In this document: one piece after another, positions 1 to 99 of the stretch
Position numbering within the stretch: the stretch's first letter is position 1
Layout: the number at the start of each line of letters is the position of its first letter
NCBI GenBank assembly: GCA_022819855.1
Contig: JAJEGN010000016.1
Coordinates: forward strand, 1-64,000
DNA length: 64,000 bases
Direction: 5' to 3'
DNA from: Gammaproteobacteria bacterium
Lineage (GTDB): Bacteria > Pseudomonadota > Gammaproteobacteria > Steroidobacterales > Rariloculaceae
The notes under the pieces: model-generated
The model's database searches: none
The model's input: the letters and a program-made list of their open reading frames with translations, nothing else
Told to the model about the DNA's origin: nothing
Position numbers and translations under genes: made by a program

Positions 1-99
1 CTGCCGTTCGCTTGAGACCCTCGCGCGCAGGGATGCGCGAGCGGAGCGTACAGGGATGTATTTACCGCGTGTCTCAAGCGAACGGCAGTGCGCCTCCCC
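1..99 (+). repeat. 110-bp dispersed palindromic element, copy A (cut by window start)
   Basis: This is the first of three copies of the same element (others at 14186-14295 and 32399-32508). The visible part is 18 nt of the left arm (1-18), a 52-nt core (19-70) and the full 29-nt right arm (71-99). The arms are perfect complements over the 18 visible pairs (left arm ends GCTTGAGAC, right arm starts GTCTCAAGC). The core holds two small hairpins, CTCGCGC/GCGCGAG with loop GCAGGGAT (20-41) and TACA-GGGA-TGTA (49-60). The start of the left arm lies outside the window. The element lies beyond the 3' end of msrP. Confidence 0.85.

Follow-up and report, generated by a model that had tools for sequence, protein, structure and literature searches.

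The window analysed here, the first 64,000 nucleotides of a contig of a Gammaproteobacteria bacterium (GCA_022819855.1, JAJEGN010000016.1), contains three copies of a palindromic element, each of which lies at the 3′ end of a gene. Copy 1 (1–101, plus strand) lies next to the 3′ end of the gene at 179–1216 (minus strand), copy 2 (14184–14297, minus strand) is situated between the convergent genes at 13233–14138 (plus strand) and 14314–15162 (minus strand), and copy 3 (32397–32510, plus strand) lies at the 3′ end of rpoD (32534–34375, minus strand). Just downstream of rpoD we also noted a group I intron at 31988–32226 on the minus strand (RF00028, 65.9 bits) that seems to interrupt a tRNA gene with a CAU-like anticodon region (tRNA half at about 32212–32250), where ARAGORN finds no intact tRNA. 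Another nested palindromic region, unrelated in sequence to the element, is present between convergent genes at 2930–3116 (arms 2930–2975/3071–3116 and 2988–3020/3027–3059).

A sequence-only reading of the window had described the element as 29-nt arms around exactly 52 nt of core, with arm bases that change in both partners between copies. Copies 2 and 3 have exactly this plan (arms 14186–14214 with 14267–14295, and 32399–32427 with 32480–32508), and the arm changes it listed are correct. Copy 1, however, is cut by the very start of its contig, so that only 18 nt of its left arm (1–18) are present alongside its right arm (71–99). A solo right arm, a degenerate 3′-half copy, is present at 139–167 on the plus strand. 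When oriented in the same way, each copy reads as a left arm, hairpin 1, a short linker with GGAGC, hairpin 2 with a 5-nt bulge (TTCAC/TTTAC) on its 3′ side, and a right arm. Hairpins 1 and 2 lie at 22–41 (loop 28–35, CAGGGATG) and 46–68 (loop 51–58, CAGGGATG) in copy 1, at 14244–14263 (loop 14250–14257) and 14217–14239 (loop 14227–14234) in copy 2, and at 32431–32450 (loop 32437–32444, CAGGGATG) and 32455–32477 (loop 32460–32467, CAGGGATG) in copy 3. RNA folding predicts a three-way junction comprising a ~29-bp outer stem and two inner hairpins, and all three copies fold far better than shuffled sequence (z-scores of −7 to −9; 0 of 200 shuffles).

To determine how widely the element is distributed, we searched the genome (3.73 Mb; hereafter G000) by BLAST and with a covariance model. 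BLAST identified 40 near full-length or truncated copies and about 10 extra 3′-half copies, usually just downstream of a full copy, whereas the covariance model identified at least 46 copies of the ~114-bp repeat. Several contigs of the assembly end inside a copy, as expected of a repeat. In G000 and in a second species, G001, the tandem 3′-half copies comprise hairpin 2, the right arm and a spacer (about 80 nt), and some keep the GGA sequence in the loop whereas others have lost it. A model built from the G000 copies found 82 and 34 matches in two species of the genus, together with matches in other genera of the family and order, although these counts can include weaker reverse-strand matches of the same places. 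Relatives occur in 71 of 369 sampled genomes of the class, in dozens of families, and named chromosomal carriers include Natronospirillum operosum and MAGs of Chromatiales, Acidiferrobacterales and Pseudomonadales. A phylum-wide survey gave hits only in the same class, but this does not establish absence outside the class. A core consensus gave no plasmid or phage match, but divergent versions of the element did identify copies on plasmids of Enterobacteriaceae, Halomonas and Shewanella. No Rfam family matched at the gathering threshold (a permissive scan gave only microRNA-precursor models, as chance matches to a long hairpin), and we found no paper that describes the element or links dispersed repeats to CsrA, although part of the literature search was uninformative.

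The sequence-only reading had inferred selection on a folded RNA or DNA form, and our analyses support this inference. Among 34 copies from G000, 98.5% of pair cells are standard pairs (87.7% in shuffles) and 21 of 42 pairs carry double changes. Among 32 diverse copies, 38 of 42 pairs carry double changes, including all 29 outer pairs, 6 of 7 pairs in hairpin 1 and 2 of 3 in the tip of hairpin 2, with a covariation score of 0.92 versus 0.21 in shuffled alignments. In neither the paired cells nor the covariation score did any of 500 shuffles reach the observed value. The alignment is fitted to the model, but the arms align almost without gaps and slid controls drop to 32–46% paired. Distant copies have unrelated outer arms that still pair over about 30 bp. 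We note that not every double change need represent two independent point mutations. At least 16 of 40 copies in G001 sit at the same place as a G000 copy, including window copy 2 (L199 in G001), indicating that copies persist through speciation, and these orthologous copies differ both by single changes and by contiguous patches changed on both arms (e.g. L191/L011 and L181/L025). The latter finding suggests that conversion or template switching probably acts on top of selection.

Mutations in a double-stranded palindrome give G-T and A-C mismatches equally. On the strand defined by the loops (the GGA strand), however, the outer arms show 87 G-U and 18 A-C cells; counted per copy the numbers are 52 versus 7, and per genome 32 versus 4 (p = 2e-6). 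The model itself slightly favours G-U, which introduces a small bias into which copies were sampled, but the set of G000 copies found by BLAST gives 21 versus 3. These findings indicate that selection acts on a folded single strand with this polarity rather than on a symmetric DNA palindrome. RNA is the simplest reading, although the asymmetry would also arise if a single-stranded DNA form were selected. An alternative possibility is that the element is a neutral repeat whose arms stay complementary through hairpin-templated repair and gene conversion between copies, as the patches changed on both arms and the decay of the 3′-half copies might suggest. We consider this very unlikely, as neither process explains the G-U excess on one strand, covariation in the short inner hairpins, or the conservation of the loops described below.

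On the GGA strand both inner loops read C-A-N-G-G-A-N-G. Of 114 copies from 53 genomes or records, 111 keep ANGGA in both loops; the C, A, G, G, A and G columns are invariant or nearly so, the N columns hold 0.6–1.1 bits, and the gap between the two GGAs is 20 nt in 90 copies, 21 nt in 18 and 19 nt in 3. The G000 copies, found by BLAST without any loop requirement, keep CANGGANG in 36/40 and 38/40 loops, and 35/40 keep it in both. Exceptions include L014 in G000, in which both loops have lost GGA while the arms remain paired, and a similar copy in G001 (L204), suggesting that the two loops work as a pair. Between orthologous copies in the two species the N positions change in 11/52 cases and the A/GGA positions in 3/104 (p = 4e-4; three degenerate pairs were left out), a ninefold difference in the odds of change. 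Even the weakest hits inspected show the motif, with A, C, G or T at the first N. The first base of the putative tetraloop is G, T, C or A, which rules out a GNRA requirement, and the invariant A opposite a variable sixth base fits a hexaloop rather than an extended A-U closed tetraloop. These loops match the published binding site of the global RNA-binding regulator CsrA/RsmA, for which SELEX gave the consensus RUACARGGAUGU in hairpins with six-base loops, RsmE recognises ANGGAN hexaloops with variable N, and dimers bridge sites 10–63 nt apart with an optimum of about 18 nt (PMC7652899); CANGGANG is the Rsm motif (PMC6849547). Hairpin 2 of window copies 1 and 2, GUACAGGGAUGU, matches the SELEX consensus at all 12 positions. 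Hairpin 1 stems, on the other hand, contain 7–9 G-C-rich pairs and are more stable than most SELEX ligands, which had four or fewer contiguous pairs (PMC7652899).

We next asked whether genomes with the element encode CsrA. G000 encodes two CsrA homologues, one of which is canonical and keeps L4, R6 and R44, whereas the other (G000:C17:56567) is a divergent member of the family. Of the 71 genomes in the class with the element, 66 have CsrA. Among genomes at least 90% complete, 59 of 60 with the element have CsrA compared to 221 of 254 without (p = 0.005), the single exception (G232) having no CsrA match. This association is consistent with a role for CsrA but is weak, as relatedness and genome size are not corrected for.

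Copies lie between genes, and the flanking genes are housekeeping. Across all samples, copies are found more often in convergent than in divergent gaps (43 versus 17, p = 0.001), but in tandem gaps the GGA strand is sense 24 times and antisense 35 times; ORF calls are heuristic here and some orthologous sites are counted twice. The absence of a sense bias argues against the simplest version of the model, in which the element acts in the 3′ UTR of the adjacent mRNA, although convergent read-through and antisense transcription remain possible. No promoter-like site was found around copies 2 and 3 in a scan that covered the sigma-70 consensus only, and there was no T-run after the stem or other terminator-like site. 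The enrichment between convergent genes and the very stable stems might suggest a bidirectional terminator or an mRNA 3′-end stabiliser in which only stem stability matters. We think this is unlikely to be the explanation, given the lack of a terminator-like site around copies 2 and 3 and because it does not account for the invariant loops or the strand asymmetry, but such a role could coexist with CsrA binding.

The sequence-only reading had proposed looking for a linked REP-associated transposase. This link is not supported, as there is no Y1 (RAYT) transposase (PF01797) in G000 and none among the commonest families of 92 flanking ORFs, although a rare one could be missed. Like REP/BIME elements and RAYT-mobilised repeats, the element is intergenic, palindromic, present in high copy, often downstream of genes, and occasionally paired in opposite orientation (in the genome G324, pairs of inverted hairpins about 210 bp apart with a conserved spacer are repeated). 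However, REPs are 20–40 bp with a GTAG or CGTC end tag (PMC3733652), whereas this element is ~114 bp, forms a predicted three-way junction and has no tag at the stem foot, its ends being AAGGGGAG/CTCCCCGC here and unrelated elsewhere. With MITEs (such as Correia/NEMIS, ERIC and prokaryotic MITEs) it shares dispersal and a lack of coding capacity; its outer arms are long inverted repeats, but they covary and are unrelated between distant copies, whereas MITE ends are conserved for a transposase; in the element the conserved part is the centre. In the genome G285, which has ≥149 copies, near-identical hairpins sit in the middle of at least three unrelated repeat units with their own inverted ends (TATACCC..CAAATT and GCAATTCCC..), one with apparent 9-bp target duplications, read by eye in two copies (GAAATATTG and TCTCATTGC); none was recognised in the genus of G000. 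In G285 the hairpin therefore looks like cargo of ordinary MITE-like elements.

The high copy number, the near-identical copies in G285 and the random orientation relative to genes would also fit a strand-specific single-stranded DNA hairpin, recognised by an unidentified recombinase or HUH-type transposase as in attC sites or IS200/IS605 ends, with the resemblance of the loops to CsrA sites being coincidental; G-T pairs are likewise better tolerated than A-C in DNA hairpins. We regard this as unlikely. In addition to the absence of a Y1 transposase from G000 and of a recurrent transposase family among the commonest families beside the copies, there is no replication-strand bias in G285 (51 versus 67, p = 0.17), the position of the hairpin inside unrelated repeats in that genome means that it need not be the part a transposase sees, and the loop motif, its N positions and the spacing all match CsrA.

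Taken together, our findings lead us to favour, with moderate confidence and without binding or transcript data, the explanation that the repeat is a dispersed RNA element. In this model, when the GGA strand is transcribed, either from neighbouring genes running through their 3′ ends or antisense, the RNA folds into a long clamp stem that presents two hairpins with ANGGAN loops about 20 nt apart, and one CsrA/RsmA dimer bridges them. Transcription of the strand, CsrA binding and any physiological effect are inferred. We think it probable that CsrA or a homologue binds the RNA and, given binding, somewhat more likely than not that the elements, at tens to over a hundred copies per genome, act as distributed docking sites, i.e. 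as a decoy pool buffering free CsrA and/or in local protection or control of the RNA 3′ end. Carriage by ordinary transposon (MITE-like) mobility in some genomes is likely. A more speculative and less likely possibility is that across much of the Gammaproteobacteria a mobile, multi-copy RNA element collectively titrates CsrA, so that repeat load as well as dedicated sRNAs sets free CsrA activity, or that the element exploits CsrA for its own spread. CsrA/RsmA is a master regulator of metabolism, biofilm and lifestyle switches, and if good CsrA sites are scattered through chromosomes in this way, then models in which CsrA is titrated only by a few sRNAs are incomplete. The element also provides a clean case of structure-level selection on a dispersed repeat with a strand-specific signature. 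As in CsrB/CsrC and RsmX/Y/Z, the hairpins have A(N)GGA loops spaced so that a CsrA dimer can bridge two of them. Those RNAs, however, are encoded by one to a few dedicated sRNA genes with their own promoters and have many GGA hairpins, whereas here there are two hairpins per unit, clamped by a long variable stem and scattered in tens to >100 intergenic copies. We note that the genome G579 contains six tandem 227-bp units that each carry the element (contig C1, about 93.6–96.7 kb), giving 12 ANGGA loops in a row, an arrangement that is CsrB-like in loop number.
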